A stretch of DNA of 29,944 nucleotides from a virus. The DNA lies in the IMG/VR virus record IMGVR_UViG_3300046360_000062, positions 1 through 29,944 of that record; one strand, written 5' to 3'. How positions within the stretch are numbered: position 1 is the first letter of the stretch; every line of letters starts with the position of its first letter. Shown in pieces: positions 4,046 through 17,571 of the stretch. Made by a program: the position numbers and the translations under genes. A model generated the notes under the pieces. That model saw only the letters and a list, made by a program, of their open reading frames with translations. It was not told the origin of the DNA and searched no databases.

Positions 4046-4867
4046 ATGATTACAGATGAACAACGTGCTAATAGGTTAAACGGTTTAGGTGCTTCAGACA
4101 GCGCTATACATATGGGCTATTCGACTTATAAGACGCCATATGAACTGTATTTAGAGAAGACAGGATTGATATCTATAGATGATGACGAGATGACAGAACA
4201 GCAGTACTGGGGAAACGCACTTGAATCAGCTATATTAGATAGGTTTGAATATGAGAACGATGACACTTATGTAACTTATCCTGAGACTGTTTATCATAAA
4301 GACTACCCATTCATATTTGCTAACCTAGATGCTTATGACAAGGCACATAATATGGTGATAGAAGCTAAGAACTCTAACTCATTTATGCGTGCAGAGTGGG
4401 ATGACGGCATACCCATGCAATACATGATTCAGATAGCAAAGCAGGTAGCTATAATGGACGCTGAAGGGGGTTACTGCGCTGTATTGATCGGTGGTTGTGA
4501 ATATAGGCAATTTATTTATGAGAGAGATCGGGAGTTAGAAGAAATGATCATCAAAGCTGATCTTAACTTCTGGAGTTGCGTTCAACATAGAATTGAGCCA
4601 GAACTACTCACAATTTCAGATGCCATGCGTAAATATGTCGATGCCAAGAAGGGTAAACGAATCGAGGCACATCCTATGCTAAACGATCATCTTAATATCC
4701 TTGCAAATACTAAGCTCTCATTATCACAGATGACCAAGCAACAAGATAAAGCCAAGCTTGCTGTAATGACTTATATGGGGGATGCTGAATCCCTAGTAAA
4801 TGAATCTGGAAAAACTATTTGTACTTGGAAACAAGGCAAGAAATCTCGAACTTTTTTGATTAAATAA
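4046..4867 (+). CDS. YqaJ-type phage exonuclease (273 aa)
   Basis: This is a PD-(D/E)XK nuclease of the YqaJ/lambda-exonuclease type, which degrades one strand from double-strand ends to give single strands for recombination. Visible motifs are GASDSA with the following G24, E60 in GNALE, D95 and E106-A-K108 as the catalytic D...ExK, and Q125...Q129 in the last core helix. The length fits the family. It begins the rightward operon under a consensus promoter with a full AGGAGG site. The RecT-type gene at the end of the operon is its expected partner: exonuclease plus annealing protein is a well-known phage pair. Confidence 0.9.
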   Translation: MITDEQRANRLNGLGASDSAIHMGYSTYKTPYELYLEKTGLISIDDDEMTEQQYWGNALESAILDRFEYENDDTYVTYPETVYHKDYPFIFANLDAYDKAHNMVIEAKNSNSFMRAEWDDGIPMQYMIQIAKQVAIMDAEGGYCAVLIGGCEYRQFIYERDRELEEMIIKADLNFWSCVQHRIEPELLTISDAMRKYVDAKKGKRIEAHPMLNDHLNILANTKLSLSQMTKQQDKAKLAVMTYMGDAESLVNESGKTICTWKQGKKSRTFLIK

Positions 4868-4876
4868 GGAACTATT

Positions 4877-5209
4877 ATGCAGGAAATAATTATCAACGGC
4901 GAAGTATATGTTAAGAAGACTAATCCGTCAGAATACTTTATTGTTCGTACTTATTCAGCAGGTGTATTTGCTGGATATATTGAATCTAGAAATGGTCAAG
5001 AAGTCATAATGAAGGATGCGCGGCGTATTTGGTATTGGGATGGGGCGGCTTCTTTATCTCAACTTGCCATGGAAGGAACTACTAAGCCTGAAAACTGCAA
5101 ATTCCCGTGCAAAGTTGATCGCGTAGAATTACTTCAAGTTATTGAAATATTATCTGTCACAGACAAAGCTAAGAAATCAATAAATGAGGTTCCAGTATGG
5201 CATCAATAA
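4877..5209 (+). CDS. DUF6948-like phage protein (110 aa)
   Basis: The central run RTYSAGVFAGY, ARRIWYWDGAASLSQLA and the C-terminal VEVIEI-like VIEILSVTDKAKKSI...VPVW match a widespread small phage/plasmid family that I know as DUF6948 (name from memory); its function is not known. AAGGAA precedes the ATG. Its last 13 bases overlap the start of the first glycine-repeat gene in another frame. A piece of its 3' end (codons for DEVPVWHQ and stop) is repeated at 5514-5541, showing that the downstream duplication started inside this gene. Confidence 0.75.
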   Translation: MQEIIINGEVYVKKTNPSEYFIVRTYSAGVFAGYIESRNGQEVIMKDARRIWYWDGAASLSQLAMEGTTKPENCKFPCKVDRVELLQVIEILSVTDKAKKSINEVPVWHQ

Positions 5210-5490
5210 ATAATGGCCCTCGCAATGGCTCTGGCAATGGCTATGGCGATGGCGATGGCAATGGCTCTGGCTATGGCGATGGCTATGGCGATGGCTATGG
5301 CGATGGCTATGGCCATGGCTCTAGCTCTGGCTCTGGCTCTGGCTATGGCTCTGGCGATGGCTCTGGCTATGGCCCTGGCGATGGTTCTGGCTCTGGCGAT
5401 TGCTATGGCTATGGCTCTGGCGATGGCTATGGCTATGGCTATGGCTCTGGCGATGGCTATGGCGATGGTTCTGGCGATGGCTCTGGGTAA
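5197..5490 (+). CDS. Alternating-glycine repeat protein 1, aspartate/serine type (97 aa)
   Basis: After MASINNG the protein is almost entirely Gly-X, with X mostly Tyr, Asp or Ser (12 Asp and 1 His). The ATG at 5197-5199 has GAGG 8 bases upstream and overlaps the end of the DUF6948-like gene. The frame is chosen because a strong ribosome binding site and start are kept in both duplicated units; other frames also stay open because of the hexamer repeat. Such a chain should be disordered or form loose beta structure, with regular tyrosines. I know no function; phase-separating, adhesive or DNA-level roles are all possible and unproven. Confidence 0.65.
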   Translation: MASINNGPRNGSGNGYGDGDGNGSGYGDGYGDGYGDGYGHGSSSGSGSGYGSGDGSGYGPGDGSGSGDCYGYGSGDGYGYGYGSGDGYGDGSGDGSG

Positions 5491-5528
5491 TTATTATTAA
5501 ACAAGGAATCAATAGATGAGGTTCCAGT

Positions 5529-5816
5529 ATGGCATCAATAAATAATGGCTATGGCCATGGCAATGGCCATGGCTATGGCAATGGCCATGGCTATGGCAAT
5601 GGCCATGGCTATGGCTATGGGGATGGCGATGGCTATGGCAATGGCAATGGCTCTGGCAATGGCCATGGCTCTGGCAATGGCCATGGCTATGGCAATGGCT
5701 CTGGCAATGGCTATGGGGATGGCTATGGCCATGGGGATGAAGATGGCTATGGCTATGGCAATGGCCATGGCTATGTTTATGGGGATGGCGATGGCGATGG
5801 CTCTGGCAATGGGTAA
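5529..5816 (+). CDS. Alternating-glycine repeat protein 2, histidine/asparagine type (95 aa)
   Basis: This is the second copy, with the same MASINNG start, the same GAGG site and the same 3' border, but its X positions favour Asn and His (8 His against 1 in copy 1), plus Tyr, Asp and Ser. The differences are mostly first-base changes in the X codon (TAT, GAT, AAT, CAT), so composition drifts without breaking the Gly-X pattern. One HGDEDG and one YVYG interrupt the regularity. It ends 22 bases before the RecT-type gene. Function is not known; the protein-coding reading is an inference from conserved translation signals. Confidence 0.65.
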   Translation: MASINNGYGHGNGHGYGNGHGYGNGHGYGYGDGDGYGNGNGSGNGHGSGNGHGYGNGSGNGYGDGYGHGDEDGYGYGNGHGYVYGDGDGDGSGNG

Positions 5817-5838
5817 TTATTATTAAACAAGGGATATC

Positions 5839-6804
5839 ATGACAACAAACCAACTTTCCACCACTAATCAAGCATTATCCAGACTAGAAGACAGTCTGTT
5901 TGCGCCAGATAAATGTGAACATTATGAAAATCTGGCATGCAAATTGGCTGGCTCCCAAGTCATCCCCAAACAATACATTGGCAAGCCAACAGACTTGTTT
6001 GTTGCAATGGCCATGGGTTATCAATTAGGAATGCCCGTGGAACAAGCGATTCAAGACATTGCAGTAATCAACGGTAGGCCATGCGTTTGGGGTGACGGCT
6101 TGCTTGCAATAGTCATGAACCATCCAGAGTTCGACGATATAATCGAAGCCCCCATCATATCAGGCCAAACAATAGTAGGCTATAGTTGCACCGTCAAACG
6201 CAAAGGTAAGGCCGATTACACCAAAACATTCACACTAGATATGGCCAAGAAGGCAGGATTGTTAGGGAAAACTGGGCCATGGACGCAATATCCTGATAGG
6301 ATGCTACAAATGAGGGCGCGCGGCTTCGCACTCCGTGATAGATTTCCTGACGCTCTACGTGGTATCAAGTTACGAGAAGAAGTAGAGGACTATATAGACG
6401 GTGAAATCATCCCAGAGAAGACCGTAACCAATGGGCTATCACGCACACAGCAATTAAAGCAAGATATCAAACAGCGACAAGGAGTAGTTAATGCGGATAA
6501 TTCGGATCTTATTACAGATATTGCGCACGAAGATGACTATCTACCAGCTGAAGAAATGCAGGCGGATGCTCCCGATATACGAACAGACGTTGCCGCTGGA
6601 ATGCCTGATAATAGAGCAGACGATAACGCTGCATATATTACTTCGGCAACTCAAGCGCAATTAGAGATTATCATGGGATTGTTTAAGGCAAAAGAACTCA
6701 CACCCGAACGTATAGAGAAAGCTTTTGATTATTTCTGTATTAGCGACCTTAAAGAATTATCGGAAGACAATGCAGACAAGTTTATAGCGATGCTTCATAA
6801 ATAA
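5839..6804 (+). CDS. recT: RecT-family single-strand annealing protein (321 aa)
   Basis: Residues about 25-190 match the RecT family of phage annealing proteins: CKLAGSQVIPKQYIGKPTD, VAMAMGYQLGMPVEQAIQD, and INGRPCVWGDGLLA near residues 77-90, then a basic, aromatic-containing core ending RARGFALRDRFPDALRG. The protein would coat and anneal the single strands made by the YqaJ-type exonuclease. Compared with E. coli RecT (about 270 residues) it is longer, with an acidic linker at about 205-260 and a helical C-terminal module (TQAQLEIIMGLF... to the end) of the kind seen in other phage annealing proteins. AAGGG precedes the ATG. Its stop end overlaps the convergent nuclease gene by 10 bases. 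Confidence 0.88.
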   Translation: MTTNQLSTTNQALSRLEDSLFAPDKCEHYENLACKLAGSQVIPKQYIGKPTDLFVAMAMGYQLGMPVEQAIQDIAVINGRPCVWGDGLLAIVMNHPEFDDIIEAPIISGQTIVGYSCTVKRKGKADYTKTFTLDMAKKAGLLGKTGPWTQYPDRMLQMRARGFALRDRFPDALRGIKLREEVEDYIDGEIIPEKTVTNGLSRTQQLKQDIKQRQGVVNADNSDLITDIAHEDDYLPAEEMQADAPDIRTDVAAGMPDNRADDNAAYITSATQAQLEIIMGLFKAKELTPERIEKAFDYFCISDLKELSEDNADKFIAMLHK

Positions 6805-9295: not shown

Positions 9296-12200
9296 TTAAC
9301 GTCGTCTTCTTGCGTATATGCCGCCAAAACCGACGCATGTTCCGGTAAATGTGCACAAAGCAGAAAGATAAATTGTTGTTGTTCCTGATAAAAATATTCT
9401 TTGGTAGGGAATATTTAATGAGTTAAGAGATCCAGTTGCGGCAGTGTATTGCATTACCGTTACTAAGGTTAGATCAGGTTGGGTAGCAGACGTACTATTA
9501 GCCCATCCAGACATCGAAGAAATAATTAGAGTTGGGTTAAATAATATATTGCCCCAAACATCCCAGTCTCCGGCTGTTAATGAGATAGAAGTAATATCAG
9601 CATTAACAGTTGTTGTAAGAGAGACAGCGCTTCCTAATAGTACGACATTGGATATTAATTGACCAACACTTCCAGTCGCAGCATTATCATTGGTAGTTGT
9701 ACCTATGATGCCAGATGTTGAGCTGAATGCAATGCTTGGTACTGTGCTTATTGCAGAGCCTGTTAATAATAATGTCCCTGTAGCATCTGGTACAGTAATT
9801 GTCTTACTAGTCGCGCTCGTAGGATAAGACCAATTAGTAGTATGGACATTAGACGTACCTGTCTGAACGATAACTTGGTTAGTCAAACTCTCGGTCTGTA
9901 GAGTAATCGGTTTCGCACCTTTCGTTGAGACTGTTATACCAACAGTTGCGCCAACACCAACAGCTGCGAGTAATACAGGATTAGTCCCAGCACTATTAGA
10001 AATTTGGAATGCATTTTGCGCACTAGCAGCAGCATCTAAATATAAAATATTATTAGATGCTGAATCTAGCAATCCTGAGAATCCTAGAGATATAGATCCA
10101 AAAGCTGGATTACTAGTTAGGGAAATATCTTGCGGCAAACTTAAGGTAACATTTCCAGTGCTTGAGGATGCAATGATTTGATTGGTAGTACCTGTAATAG
10201 AACTGACACCCAAAGTGGATAAATTGACCCATGTAGGTAAAGCAGAAGCCCCGTTAGATTTCAATATTTGCCCTGATGTTCCCGCGCCTGTATTTTGAAA
10301 TATTCCAGTACTGGTAGTTCCGCCACAAATAAGACCATAAGCAGTAGTAGTAGCTATTCCAGTTCCACCATTTGCGACTGGCAATGTTCCAGTTACACCA
10401 CTTGTTAATGGCAATCCAGTCACATTGGTCATTACGCCAGATGTTGGAGTGCCTAATAAAGGTGTAATTAGAGTTGGGGATGTAGCAAGTACGATACTAC
10501 CACTCCCAGTCACATTTTGGCCTAGCGCAGTTGTAATTCCGGTACCAAAAGCTGTAGGTAACGTAAGACTAGTGTTCCCCGTAACTATGAAATTTGTAGT
10601 AAATGCTCCAGAGAAGCTCAATGCAGCTCCCAGAGTAATCGTAGAACTTATTGCATTGGCAACCCCAGTGCCGCCATTAGAAGGTGATACCACCCCTGCA
10701 GTTTGTCCGAACTGAACAAATATAATCGGATCGGTTCCAATGGTTGTAACCGTTGCTGTTTCTAGCCAACCTGTGCCTACATTAACTGTGCCTGATATTA
10801 CGGGAATGATACCCGATCCATTAATATCTGATGGAGAATCATAGTTAGTTGCCCGAGTTAATATCCAATTTGTAATACCCGAACCAACATCAGTTACTAC
10901 ATAAATGCCATTCTGAAATAAGCTGGATTGATTCTTAATTAGAATCCTTTGAGCTACAGTAGCACTTATTCCATCAATTGAAAAAGTTGCTTGTGTACCT
11001 GCATTTGTTAATGTTGCCCCTACTCCTGATGCGCCATTGGAATATGTTACAGTTAAGTTGGCTGTGCTTGCAGCAGTTACTGCTTCTTCAGGAGTGAGTC
11101 CAACAGCCACAGTATCCACATAATTTTTTGTAGCCGCATCTTGGGCGCTAGTAGGGTCAGTCACCCCATTAATTTGATGCGAGTTCATTGCCAATGCTGA
11201 TTGCTGAGACCCAAGTGTTGAAGGAGTTACTAAGGTTGAACTTGTCTGCAATAAAATACTTCCTGAGCCGGATACATTCTGTCCGAAAGCTGTTGCAACG
11301 CCTGTTCCTAGTGATGTTACACCCGTGCCACCATTGGCTGCTGCTATAGTTGTACCAGTCCATACACCGGTTGTAATCGTACCAAGCGTTGTAATAGAAC
11401 TTTGGCCTACATAACTTGCTGATATGTCGATAACCGGAGTAGTGCCACCAGTTGAGGTTATTCTGTTTGATGTTCCTGTAACAGAAGCCACGGTCCCCGC
11501 TGTGGTTGCCAATGTGCCAGAAGTCGGGAATGTAACTGTAGTTACCCCTGTCATAGTAAATGTTGAGGCGAAAGCACCAGATGTTGTTAACGCGCCACCT
11601 AATGTCAATGTATTAGAACCATTGTTTACACCAGTCCCGCCGTATGTGGCACCTATAATAGTTCCTTGCCAGATACCTGTTCCTATTGTTCCTAAGGTAG
11701 TAATAGATGATTGACCCACATAAGTGGCAGCTATATCTATAACTGGAGTGCCACCACCAGTTGAGGTGATTCTATTCGCTGTACCGCTGACGCTACTAAC
11801 TCCAGTTCCAGCTGGAGTAGCCCAACTACCATCTCCTCTCCAGAATGTGCTGGATGTTGCGGCAGTACCACTATCAAGATTAGTCACTGGTAAATTACCT
11901 GTGACGCCAGTGCTTAATGGCAATCCAGTCCCGCTTGTCAGAATTACACTTGTCGGCGTTCCCAATGCAGGTGTAACCAACGTTGGACTTGTGCTCAAAA
12001 CTATACTGCCACTGCCAGTAACATTTTGACCAAGGGCGGTTTGTACGCCTGTACCAAATGATGTAATACCTGTGCCACCATTGGCAATCGCAATCGTTGT
12101 TCCAGTCCATACGCCAGTTGTTATTGTTCCAAGCGTCGTAATGGAGCTTTGCCCTACATAAGAAGCGGATATATCAATAACGGGGGTATTGCCCCCTGTG

Positions 12201-13612
12201 GAAGTTATACGATTCGAAGTTCCTGATACTGACGTAACCCCAGTTCCTGCAGGCGTTGTCCATGTTCCGGCGCCTGACCAATATGTTGATGCAGATGCAC
12301 TTGTCCCAGAATTCAAATTAGTTACAGGAATATTGCCGTTAAGGCTGATTGTGATAGATGCAGAGCCATTGGCCACCAGAATGTTTTGTCCAGAATTAAT
12401 TGCTGCGGCTGTGGGCGCTGCTCCAGTAGTTCCAATGAAAATCTGTCCAGCAGATAAAGCGGCTATAGACGGAACACCGGCGCCACTTGTAACTAGCATT
12501 CCACTATTTGCTGTAGCTAGTCCACTAACTGTGTTTGCGGTTGCATTATACAACAGCGTATTGACTGCGTATGTATCAGCAAACGTGCTTGTAGTTGCAA
12601 GCCAGTTTGTGCCATTGGAGCGTAATATCGTGCCTGTTGCTCCCACAGTTGTAGGGAATGAAGCAGTAGACCAAATGCTTGCACCGCCTGATACAGATTG
12701 TAGGAATTTACCGGTAGCACTTGGATTAGCCAAGAATGAGGGCACGCTACTACTATTAGTAATTAATACGCCACCAACTGCAGTGGTGATTTCTCCAATA
12801 GCATTAGCAGAAGAAGAGTATAAAATTTGGCTAGAAGTACTTGTTGCAGGCCAAGTTGTTGTTGACCACGCGGGCGCAGAACTTGCGCCAGATTGTAACA
12901 TCTGTCCTGCTGTAGCAGTGCTAGACAAAATAGCGCCTGCACTTGCAGTAGAATAGAATATACCGCCATTATCCGCCGTCAAACTCGCACTTGTTCCGCC
13001 TTGAGATAATAATACGGGAACTTGCAATGTAGCGCCTGTATATAATCCAAATGTAATCGCACTAGAACCAACTACTACAGGTGTATTACTCAATTCTTGA
13101 TACAGCAGTCCTGCGCTGACATCGCCTTGATTCACAAGTATGACGCCATACTGGACAATCTCAGCAGTACTATCATAATCAGTTGCTCGAGTCAGTACCC
13201 AGTTTGTTGTGCTAGAACCAATATTAGACACAATATAGATACCATTCTGCAATGTGCTTGCTTGGTTCTTGACAAGAACTCTATTACCGACTGCTAATGT
13301 TACACTGTCAATACTCAATGCAGCTTGTGCAGCAGAATTTGTAAGACTTGCGCCAATTCCTGACGAGCCATTACTGTATGTAGCTGTTAATGGCGCTGTA
13401 GTAGCAACTCTAACTGCATCATAGATTGTTAATCCTTGGGCATGCAGCATGAAATTAAATATTTCAGACAACGTGAATTTCTTGGTCTTACCATTGACGG
13501 ATGACGTAGTGTCAGTTGTGTCAGTAGCCGGAAATAAATCTGTTCCTTGGCTAGAACCTGAACCCGTACCGTCCGGTGGTGGTGGTAGCTGACTTATGAT
13601 CACTGTTGCCAT
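9296..13612 (-). CDS. Giant modular tail-fibre protein (1438 aa)
   Basis: This long Thr/Ser/Gly-rich protein is built of repeats. Residues about 58-190 and 837-970 are two copies of one domain (RV(L)[21 protein letters not shown]). Between and after them are many [25 protein letters not shown] and [14 protein letters not shown] units typical of phage fibre shafts. [21 protein letters not shown] motif near 825 is the common collar/stalk motif of trimeric fibres. The last 100 residues ([11 protein letters not shown] to GGIYARRRR) form a terminal beta domain seen in other fibres, probably the host-binding or trimerising tip. GGAG precedes the ATG. It is probably homotrimeric. Confidence 0.8.
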
Positions 13613-13625
13613 TATTCATGCTCCG

Positions 13626-14186
13626 TTATATAAAATAAATGCCTGTAAATTTCACTTCTTGCTGTGTAGCCGATGGAAAACTTGTAGCAAGCGTTAGCGT
13701 CGCTTGTGCCTGCGCACTTCCGGTAGTCTGGAATTGTGCCGTAGATGTAACCCCTATCGTACGCATAACTCCTTGAGTTCTAGTTCCTGTAAATGCTAGA
13801 GCTGATACAAATATAGTCATTGTATCTTCATTGTTTACAGTCCCTACGGTCAATGGCAATGTTATTTTTGCGGTTCCACTCGCTGTTGTATATGTGGGCG
13901 TAAATTTTATATTTATGTTTACATAAACTTTGGAGCCCACAATCGTATAAAAGCCAATTTGGGTAGCATAACTTACTGACAAATCTCCGACAGTCGCAGC
14001 AGTAAAAGTAGGGCTAAAAGACACGGCTTGGTTATAAGCGCTCAATACGGAACCACCAAAAGTAATACTGGTAGCTAGAGCAGCTCCAATATTTGGAGTC
14101 ACCAAAGTCGGGGAAGTGGCGCCAACAAATGAACCAGTACCTGTAGCACCAGACAAACTATTACCAACCATGTTAATACTAGCCAT
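13626..14186 (-). CDS. Fibre-tip-type protein, paralogue A (186 aa)
   Basis: The first 60 residues ([34 protein letters not shown]) are closely similar to those of the next gene upstream, and the SPTLVTP unit is shared with the large fibre proteins. The C-terminal 120 residues differ and read as a beta sandwich ending KFTGIYFI. AGGGA precedes the ATG. The pattern of a conserved anchor with a variable head suggests alternative receptor-binding tips. Attachment to the fibre is inferred from shared motifs and position. Confidence 0.7.
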   Translation of the reverse strand: MASINMVGNSLSGATGTGSFVGATSPTLVTPNIGAALATSITFGGSVLSAYNQAVSFSPTFTAATVGDLSVSYATQIGFYTIVGSKVYVNINIKFTPTYTTASGTAKITLPLTVGTVNNEDTMTIFVSALAFTGTRTQGVMRTIGVTSTAQFQTTGSAQAQATLTLATSFPSATQQEVKFTGIYFI

Positions 14187-14194
14187 AGCTATCC

Positions 14195-14758
14195 CTAAAC
14201 AAAATAGAATCCAGTGTATAAGATACTAAAAGCTACCCCAGAGACTATATTTGACATTTGAATGGCAGTCGCCGCTGTCGACGAACCAAAACCATAAAGC
14301 CAAATCTGAGTTGTGTTAGCCGTACATTGACCCACTAACTGTGTCACTCCAACCGGATAAATAAATGAGCCAATCTGAGTACAGGTAGAAGCATAATCAC
14401 CACTAGATGCATTAATAGTAAATGGTAATCCATCGACATATATTTGGCCCGAGGCGGTAGTAAATGTTGGCGTACAAATCAAGCGAATATTATAATCAAC
14501 TACATTCCCAACCCTTGAATAAAATGCGCTTTGTGTAGCATAGCTAACTGATAAATTACCAACTGTCGCACATGTAAATGTCGGAGTGAATGCTGTAGTT
14601 GCAACATATGAGCTTAATGTACTGCCTCCGAAATTAATGCTGGTAGCCGTAATGACTCCAAGTGTAGGTGTCACAAGAGTTGGGGAGTTCGAACCTACAA
14701 AAGACCCTGATCCAGTGCTCCCTGTTAACGAATTACCAACCTGATTCACTGTTGCCAT
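14195..14758 (-). CDS. Fibre-tip-type protein, paralogue B (187 aa)
   Basis: This tandem paralogue of the gene at 13626-14186 has the same anchor ([37 protein letters not shown]), the same length to one residue and an equivalent end (YTGFYFV). The heads share FTPTF.CATVG.LSVSYATQ..FY and then diverge. GGAG precedes the ATG. The two genes are 8 bases apart and look like a duplication followed by divergence of the probable receptor-facing part. Confidence 0.7.
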   Translation of the reverse strand: MATVNQVGNSLTGSTGSGSFVGSNSPTLVTPTLGVITATSINFGGSTLSSYVATTAFTPTFTCATVGNLSVSYATQSAFYSRVGNVVDYNIRLICTPTFTTASGQIYVDGLPFTINASSGDYASTCTQIGSFIYPVGVTQLVGQCTANTTQIWLYGFGSSTAATAIQMSNIVSGVAFSILYTGFYFV

Positions 14759-14991: not shown

Positions 14992-17571
14992 TTATGTAGT
15001 AGTAAACACGCCATTTACCATGGCATTCATTGCTACCCATGACGTATTAGCAACGTCACAAATAAGCTGAACAGCTTGACCAGCAGCGGCAGGACTAGTC
15101 ATCGTACCACCGGTTGATGTAGTTGTATTAATCACGCGGATTGTATCTCCGGTAGCGGCTGCAATAACGATACCGCCAGTATTTGCTGTAGCTCCTATAA
15201 CATATACAATATCTCCCACAGCATACGTAGATGGAAGCGTAATCGTAGTTTGCGCTGAATTAAGTGCAATATAATATGTATTTACAGCTGCTGTTTGAGT
15301 GGTTCCTGATATAGTCGCAACCGTAAAACCAGCACTCGTTGCCCACGTACCATCGCCACGCCAAAAGGTGGAGCTCGAAGCACTTGTGCCTGAATTTAGG
15401 TTGGTAACGGGCAAGTTTCCTGTCACCCCTGTTGTTAATGGCAATCCAGTTGCATTGGTGAGAGTTCCACTGGAAGGCGTTCCGAGAGCGCCGTTAAATG
15501 TTACAAATGCGCCTGCTGAACCAATGTTAACTGCAAGTGCTGTTACAACTCCTGTTCCCGATGTTATTTGGCCAACAACATTCGAACCAGATGCATAAAG
15601 GATATTGCCCGAGGTCACGGTATCAGGATAAGTAGCAGTTGATGCAACCCAATTGGTTCCATTTGCTCTTAATATAGTTCCTGTGCTTGTCGCGGTAGAT
15701 GGGAAAGTTGCCGTTGAAAAACTTGGAGCAGCAGCTGCATTACTTTGTAACATTTGTCCGGTAGTTCCAGGACCCGCTAAAATAGACGGCACACCAGAGC
15801 TGCTAGTGACTAACAAACCATTATTACCGGTAGCTAAACCTGTGACAGTATTTGAGCCATTTGAATACAACAAATTACTGGCGGTGTAGGTATCTGCAAA
15901 CGTTGCTGTACTGTTAATAATGTTAGTGCCATTAGACCGATGAATGGTTCCTGTAGTTCCTGCAGTACCAGGATAAGTTGCTGTTGTGTTTACAAAGTTA
16001 GTTCCATTTGATTGTAACAATGTACCGCTGGTTCCGGCCGTTGTTGGGAAAGTTGCTGTACTCCATGTTGGCAATGCAGCGGCTCCTCCAGAAGTCAAGA
16101 TCTGACCAGTACTTCCGGTTCCAACTGCTTGCCATGCGCCAGTAGCAGTCGTACCAGATGCCATCAAACTATAAGCCGTGGTAGCGGTTTGTAAACCAGT
16201 ACCCCCATTGGGAACTGTAAGTGCTGCTGTTAATGTTAGGGATCCAAATGTAGGACTACTTGTAGTTGCAATACTTTGAGGCAATGATAATGTCACATCA
16301 CCTGTAGCAGCACTTGCAATAACCTGATTTGCCGTTCCAGTAATGGAAGCCACACCAAAAGCTGTAGAAGCATCTGCTGATAATGGAATGAAATAACTGG
16401 TTCCATTAATTTTTGCACGCCAGAATCCTGCGCCATTTGTGCTAGGATAGATTGTGCCATTACCTCGGAAGCCTACAGGGAATGCAGCGGAACCTATGGC
16501 TATACCTGGGCCATTATCACCGGATGTCCCACCCGTGGATGCCAGTGCTACAGAATCATTACCGATGGCAATCGTTCCTGATGCACTACTTGTATTGGCT
16601 GTAGCTCGATAACCAAAATGTAGATTGTTGCTGCCGCTAACTATAGAAGCTCCTCCTGAAGCCCCGCTAACGCCAGAACCTGATCCAAAAAAATTATTTT
16701 GAATTCCTACGTCTACATTCGCACCTGAAAAAAAACCAAATGCCGTGGTATCTGTACCTTCATAATCATTGTTACTTAATGATAAAGAACCAACACATGT
16801 TGTGTTTCCCGCTGCTGGTTGCATATTAGTCAATACACCATTGCCAATACCAACTATATTCCCCCCAGCTCCGCCACTCGAAATCCCTGCATTTTGCCCG
16901 ACAAATAAATTAGATGCGTGGTTTCCTGCTCCTATACCAACGGTAATATTATCGACCAATATAGCAGCTGTTGTAGTAATGGTAGTGAATTGTACTGAAG
17001 AATTTGTGGCAATACTTTGCGGCAAGCTCAATGTGATCGCACCTGTACTAGCTGAAGCAATAACTTGATTTGCGGTTCCTGTAATAGACAATACACCACC
17101 TGAATCACCAGAATAACTAGCATTCCATGAGGCTGCAGTTGTGCCGCTTGTTAAAATACATTTTAATAATAAAGAAGTATTCGCAGCCATAACTTGAATG
17201 GCATTATTCCCTGAAGAATTGACAGTAACGACACCACTCGAATTGTTAATAATGAAATATGGTTGTCCTGCTACCAAAGTGCTCGTCACAGGCATTGTTA
17301 CAGTCTGTGTAGTAGAGCCTGTAAATTCCTGGGTATACTTACTAGCTACTGTTAGAACAGTGGTTGCTGCCGCTGTTGGTATAGTTGCAAATCCACCTAA
17401 GAAATTATTGGCACTTAGATTGCTATTCGCATCCCAAAGTGCAACTCCAGAAGCTGATGCGGTAGCAGATAACGAAAACTTAGAGTTAGCCCCAGCACTT
17501 AGACCTACCAATGTACTGCTAGAGCTCGCTACACCGGCACTTGGGAACGAACTCCATTTAATATCTGCCAT
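14992..17571 (-). CDS. Large modular tail-fibre protein (859 aa)
   Basis: The N-terminus ([29 protein letters not shown]) is a likely virion-anchor segment. Residues about 205-350 hold short repeats with GIGNG, CVGS, FG..SG and AIGND motifs, resembling the left-handed beta-roll heads of trimeric adhesins such as YadA. The rest repeats shaft units shared with the 1438-aa protein: [47 protein letters not shown]. The C-terminal 110 residues ([20 protein letters not shown] onward) form a different beta domain. GGAG precedes the ATG. It is probably a trimeric fibre acting in host recognition. Confidence 0.75.

Follow-up and report, generated by a model that had tools for sequence, protein, structure and literature searches.

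Tandem Gly-X repeat genes of a viral contig as probable members of a two-gene DUF6948 module of phages

The window, i.e., the whole stretch of DNA analyzed here, is a viral contig record of 29,944 bases that contains two tandem open reading frames (ORFs), each encoding MASINNG followed by (Gly-X)n. Our comparisons indicate that these ORFs are very probably coding and that they belong to a conserved two-gene module in which a DUF6948 gene precedes a (Gly-X)n gene, the two being apparently translationally coupled as judged from their arrangement. The complete reading, in which the tandem ORFs are Gly-X genes of this module and the repeat product additionally serves as a disordered chain in assembly, we regard as evenly balanced. 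A role of the DUF6948-Gly-X pair in nucleic acid or protein assembly is, taken by itself, a tentative proposal.

Table 1. Coordinates of the features of the window
Feature	Position	Strand	Details
YqaJ/RecE-type exonuclease	4046..4867	+	PF09588, E = 3.6e-22; phrog_434, E = 8.7e-57; context, outside the conserved module
DUF6948 gene	4877..5209	+	110 aa; PF22253, E = 8.6e-32, 109.6 bits, cut-off 27
Unit 1 5′ border	5171..5217	+	Within and just beyond the 3′ end of DUF6948
GAGG ribosome-binding-like site, unit 1	5186..5189	+	Made by Glu-Val codons of DUF6948
Gly-X gene 1	5197..5490	+	97 aa; X chiefly Ser, Tyr, Asp; start codon within the 3′ end of DUF6948
13-nt overlap	5197..5209	+	ATG of Gly-X gene 1 uses a Trp codon of DUF6948 (a-TGG)
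Unit 1 3′ border	5484..5506	+	23 bases, stop codon included; identical to 5810-5832
Unit 2 5′ border	5503..5549	+	Copy of the DUF6948 3′ end and the MASINNG start
Gly-X gene 2, tandem copy	5529..5816	+	95 aa; X chiefly Tyr, Asn, His, Asp
Unit 2 3′ border	5810..5832	+	23 bases, identical to 5484-5506
RecT-type annealing protein	5839..6804	+	phrog_561, E = 5.4e-41; PF03837 barely over cut-off; context, outside the conserved module

A first-pass annotation had described two tandem units with almost identical borders and differing interiors, and this description was confirmed (Table 1). The 5′ borders, each 47 bases long (26 upstream of the ATG and 21 from it onward), differ at 2 positions, a match that far exceeds chance in 30 kb; the 3′ borders are identical as proposed, over 23 rather than 22 bases. 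Each unit possesses the annotated GAGG site, located 7 nt 5′ of the ATG in both cases (5518 to 5521 in unit 2), and the ATG opens the MASINNG start, followed by about 45 Gly-X dipeptides. The 5′ border copies the 26 bases of the DUF6948 gene that immediately precede the overlap, and in the old DUF6948 frame the leader of unit 2 still encodes KESIDEVPVWHQ and a stop codon. Since unit 2 keeps this copied tail, the tandem would most simply have arisen by duplication of a segment consisting of the DUF6948 tail, the Gly-X gene, and the trailer. The two-unit structure of the window phage derives from one assembly; independent contigs (L063, L093, L113, L158, L166, L177, and L178) contain comparable arrays, in which 2 to about 8 tandem units repeat their leaders and ends. 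In L158, about eight Gly-X genes, distributed over both strands, have a common leader (MQEQLIRGEMxR) and a common end (KEDIVCKSN).

The X positions of unit 1 comprise 14 Ser, 13 Tyr, 12 Asp, 3 Asn, 2 Pro, and 1 His, those of unit 2 13 Tyr, 11 Asn, 8 His, 8 Asp, and 4 Ser. Glycine is encoded by GGC in 40 of 45 and 38 of 44 cases, respectively, the other window genes favoring GGT and GGA. The GGC-NNN hexamer noted in the first pass does repeat, the pattern being more exactly GGC-N[A/C]T. The minority codons are linked to their neighbors, GGT always being followed by TCT and GGG always by GAT, as expected if segments rather than single bases are copied. Note that an open frame by itself is no proof of coding here, the other frames of the tract being open too. 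Searches of Pfam, NCBIfam, and PHROGs with the window Gly-X ORFs gave nothing above the curated cut-offs, the sole subthreshold matches being TrAA12 and ser_rich_anae_1. Identification with Pfam TrAA12 or NCBIfam ser_rich was rejected as a low-complexity artifact; a few relatives do pass the TrAA12 cut-off, on the repeat alone. Neither tblastn of the Gly-X protein against phages (run with a low-complexity filter) nor a search of IMG/VR for the exact leader ATGGCATCAATAAATAATGGC gave a match. Elsewhere in the window, two tail-region proteins that look like paralogues (13626-14186 and 14195-14758, minus strand) start with MASINMVGNSLSGATG and MATVNQVGNSLTGSTG, respectively; the resemblance of their MASIN start to the Gly-X leader is probably due to chance. 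Two long tail proteins (9296-13612 and 14992-17571, minus strand) contain many degenerate internal repeats.

Searches for relatives retrieved hundreds of Gly-X ORFs from phages and prophages. The viral contigs retrieved by a codon pattern numbered at least 119, and nearly all of them contain (Gly-X)n ORFs in frame; a pattern left free at third codon positions gave 120 stretches, in part on the same contigs. The tracts of the relatives span about 60 to 120 residues. Carriers are phages and contigs assigned to Bacteroidota, Clostridia, Acidobacteria, Chlamydiae, cyanobacteria, and proteobacteria. The organism given for a genome contig is that of its metagenome bin, which may be incorrect if the contig is from a phage. 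Among cultured phages, the pair is present in Iodobacter phage PhiPLPE, Vibrio phage IKEMa6-1, Chlorobiaceae phage CV-1-33, and Pectobacterium phage Taid. In PhiPLPE, the Gly-X gene lacks an annotation, and in CV-1-33, its MAMALAM frame was annotated instead (the loci of these two phages being L279:3327-3588 and L280:1164-1409).

In some cases, a further domain is fused to the C-terminal end of the tract, and the chain may therefore also serve as a linker. Domain A, which features an LTGSC-type motif, was collected by this motif in 35 distinct sequences (L126:1069-1533 and 34 others); it is frequent in contigs of Bacteroidota and Clostridia and has no Pfam relative, and its confident predicted model yet had no relative in the PDB. 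Domain B (L237, L244, L230, L268, L097, and L206), with the consensus FWRSxxxGxPaNGG ... LHATxxPxKWxGxRWWxVALxGEV ... KREIIGE, gave no confident Pfam match. In L091, the tract is fused to DUF7666.

The constant partner of the repeat gene is DUF6948. The gene upstream of the tandem, called DUF6948-like in the first pass, is a clear member of this family (PF22253; Table 1). Counted from the last base of the DUF6948 stop codon, the ATG of unit 1 is at −13, and of 113 independent DUF6948 loci, 91 have their Gly-X start at this very position and 109 between −20 and +5. The same geometry reads −10 when the last sense codon is the reference. SD-like words are found 4 to 16 nt upstream of the start in 62 of the 113 relatives, compared with 22% in control windows. 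When loci were collected through DUF6948, without reference to repeats and in a set that favors relatives near the window's version, a Gly-X gene directly followed DUF6948 in all 65 viral loci with enough sequence; for bacterial and archaeal genome contigs, this was the case in 35 of 39 by a strict and 38 of 39 by a looser rule. Starting from the repeat, a search with a profile built from neighbors of Gly-X loci placed DUF6948 within 400 nt upstream in 139 of the 153 codon-pattern loci with enough upstream sequence. This profile was specific, matching 328 of 26,727 ORFs and a single one of 57 loci selected through RecT, and the lone DUF6948 gene among the latter adjoins the only Gly-X-like small ORF there. 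By Pfam, DUF6948 is the upstream neighbor of 43 of 106 Gly-X loci, the next family reaching 2 of 106, and it is absent from the 25 commonest downstream families. Strand and order of the pair are the same in nearly all relatives. The partners are separate genes at all loci but L182, where a natural in-frame DUF6948-Gly-X fusion was found. The whole pair is repeated three times in L298 and twice in L123 (L123:8353-9435).

Of 80 viral contigs (L285 to L364), 15 end within 250 nt behind DUF6948, and 1 starts within 250 nt before it. With contigs ending in the tract, the repeat appears to break short-read assemblies, and Gly-X genes are therefore probably underreported; the excess of contig ends is an independent sign of repeat behavior.

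The codon statistics were obtained from sets chosen without a GGC/T bias or via DUF6948 without any repeat. Among the 115 tracts collected solely via DUF6948, 66 have an invariant third base in the Gly codons and 63 in the X codons, and none is invariant at the first or second base of X. The codon rule differs between phages: GGC-NNC applies to 43 of these tracts, GGC-NNT to 40, GGT-NNC to 19, GGG-NNC to 6, and others to 7; GGA-NNT has also been seen. Genome GC contents of the codon-rule groups overlap broadly. The dominant third base is the same for Tyr, Asp, and Ser codons in 78 of 82 tracts, and the dominance of one Gly codon departs from the usage of flanking genes with a median binomial P of about 10^-13. 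At the protein level, at least three X types each reach at least 10% in 96 of 105 tracts, Asp is present in all 105, and the alphabet is narrow across very different hosts (Y, D, S, N, and few H or F). From these patterns, we infer that expansion and contraction by hexamers homogenizes the neutral third positions, whereas the composition of X would be selected at the protein level, because neutral X positions would homogenize as often, yet the mixture and the Asp residues are kept.

Close relatives provide snapshots of this process. Pairs with identical DUF6948 genes differ by tract indels of, for example, 30, 6, 72 (L305/L307), or 162 nt (L196/L214), in frame and in whole hexamers, or are identical throughout. 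In L394 and L397, whose DUF6948 genes are 97% identical, the codon rule differs (GGC/TCC versus GGA/AGC). Together with the relatives, these comparisons support the earlier claim of coding genes that follow a fixed Gly-X rule and have conserved borders and fast-changing interiors. No clear case of a frameshifted tract, which would have spoken for noncoding repeat DNA, was found among the relatives. Apparent out-of-frame Gly-X segments were considered as broken genes and rejected, most of them belonging to additional units or to alternative frames of the tract itself. A count of synonymous to nonsynonymous substitutions, a check suggested in the first pass, gave 114:37 for DUF6948 and 79:149 for the Gly-X ORFs including leaders and fused domains, the latter ratio depending on the alignment and partly reflecting shuffling, as repeat alignments are ambiguous. 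For L105 and L115, the ratios were 32:5 in DUF6948 versus 1:30 in Gly-X.

The nonsynonymous excess in the tract, set against strong purifying selection in DUF6948, could also signal an arms race, in which the chain of the same module is a surface whose X residues diversify under host pressure, as in a decoy, an anti-defense factor, or a superinfection factor. The wide host range of the carriers and the small size and early-region position of the gene are in line with this explanation. We nevertheless consider it unlikely: the narrow alphabet in very different hosts fits a bulk composition better than specific recognition, and no match was obtained in PADLOC-DB, which covers defense, not counter-defense.

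The exact 13-nt overlap would likewise suit a translation device, in which the downstream ORF, being coupled, modulates the expression of DUF6948 or the stability of the mRNA while the ORF product is unimportant, and uniform codons could set the elongation speed. This alternative is quite improbable, since the dominant Gly codon is the most used one of the flanking genes in only 35 of 76 tracts and the fusion of some tracts to domain A, domain B, or DUF6948 itself points to a protein product that matters.

The first-pass annotation had correctly identified the YqaJ-type and RecT-type neighbors and had linked the repeat to them, which corresponds to a DNA-level explanation: the hexamer tract would be prone to recombination and would serve the adjoining recombinases. 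Besides the adjoining genes in the window, the fast change in tract length and the frozen synonymous sites within the tract would agree with it. The proposed tie was not upheld by a comparison of loci collected with the window RecT, 56 of 57 of which lack both DUF6948 and a Gly-X gene; at the one remaining locus, DUF6948 and a Gly-X-like ORF occur together. RecT was detected in 5 of 32 records carrying the pair, and the genes up- and downstream belong to mixed early DNA-metabolism families (AAA_24, YqaJ, ERF, DUF669, DNA methylases, and NinB). Recombination genes are frequent, not constant, neighbors of the pair, and with these counts the Gly-X gene is not an obligate member of a recombination operon. 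A role at the DNA level is mostly refuted and very improbable, because the hexamer differs between phages while the Gly-X rule of the translation persists; the relatives also conserve the reading frame, the start codon, and the overlap. The codon patterns thus argue against a fixed DNA motif and support a Gly-{Tyr,Asp,Ser,Asn} chain under protein-level selection. The variable interior between fixed borders might finally recall a diversity-generating (DGR) variable region or an assembly artifact, but across the family at large this is refuted and barely credible, as the changes involve T/G/A/C at the first and A/C at the second X base with fixed third bases and are not adenine specific, no second, template-like copy exists in the 29,944-base record, and the structure recurs in independent contigs and in cultured phages.

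For the module of DUF6948 and a protein-coding Gly-X gene, the predicted structure of DUF6948 offers a possible function. The AlphaFold2 model is a confident barrel (pLDDT 93.8), and the PDB matches listed for it are nearly all Sm/LSm proteins, with weak E values of 0.008 to 0.03, probabilities of mostly 1.00, query-normalized TM scores of about 0.4 to 0.54, and target TM scores of about 0.4 to 0.7. DUF6948 is hence predicted to have an Sm/LSm-like fold. Its predicted fold resembles phage and marine Sm-like proteins (PDB 3by7; Synechococcus phages), although a search of the PDB with the DUF6948 sequence gave no match. Hfq profiles of Pfam and NCBIfam did not match the window proteins. The literature searched, which was incomplete in that most subscription journals were outside it, contained no paper on DUF6948, DUF7666, or Gly-X peptide motifs and no description of a Gly-X partner of DUF6948. 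We know of no Gly-X partner of Sm-like proteins of the phage/marine type.

Acinetobacter baumannii Hfq comprises an Sm core, GGFGGQ repeats, and an acidic tip, and its repeat number matters for function (PMC11617691). The predicted Sm-like fold of DUF6948 and its Gly/aromatic acidic companion recall this combination of an Sm core with disordered Gly/aromatic-rich repeats containing acidic residues, which led us to the idea of a tail encoded in trans. In A. baumannii, both parts reside in one protein with a known RNA-chaperone role (PMC11617691), whereas the Gly-X chain is, except in L182, the product of a separate, overlapping gene, alternates strictly, is hypervariable, and has DUF6948, not Hfq, as partner. 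Silk fibroins also have Gly-rich repeats with a synonymous-codon bias, homogenized by unequal crossing-over and slippage (PMC1885213, PMC4522600). They share with Gly-X the strong preference for particular synonymous codons; as animal structural proteins of thousands of residues, they differ from the acidic phage chains of about 60 to 120 residues, and homology is not claimed.

In the proposed mechanism, the Gly-X product would be a disordered, acidic, Tyr-studded, and self-associating chain that contacts the Sm-like DUF6948 protein in trans. DUF6948 would bind nucleic acid, and the tail would allow it to gather phage nucleic acid and/or proteins of early DNA metabolism. The pair might thereby represent an undescribed class of phage nucleoprotein assembly, in which an Sm-like binder is combined with a trans-encoded hypervariable chain that is rebuilt by hexamers and selected for composition, not sequence, a possibility we put forward with reserve.

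The presence of the pair across such varied hosts makes a general function likely. Its Gly-X member resembles low-complexity noise and, in some cultured phages, has been left unannotated or annotated in an incorrect frame. As a clear natural example of synonymous sites that vary less than nonsynonymous ones, the tracts allow a direct test of how a low-complexity protein is shaped jointly by repeat turnover and by selection on its composition.
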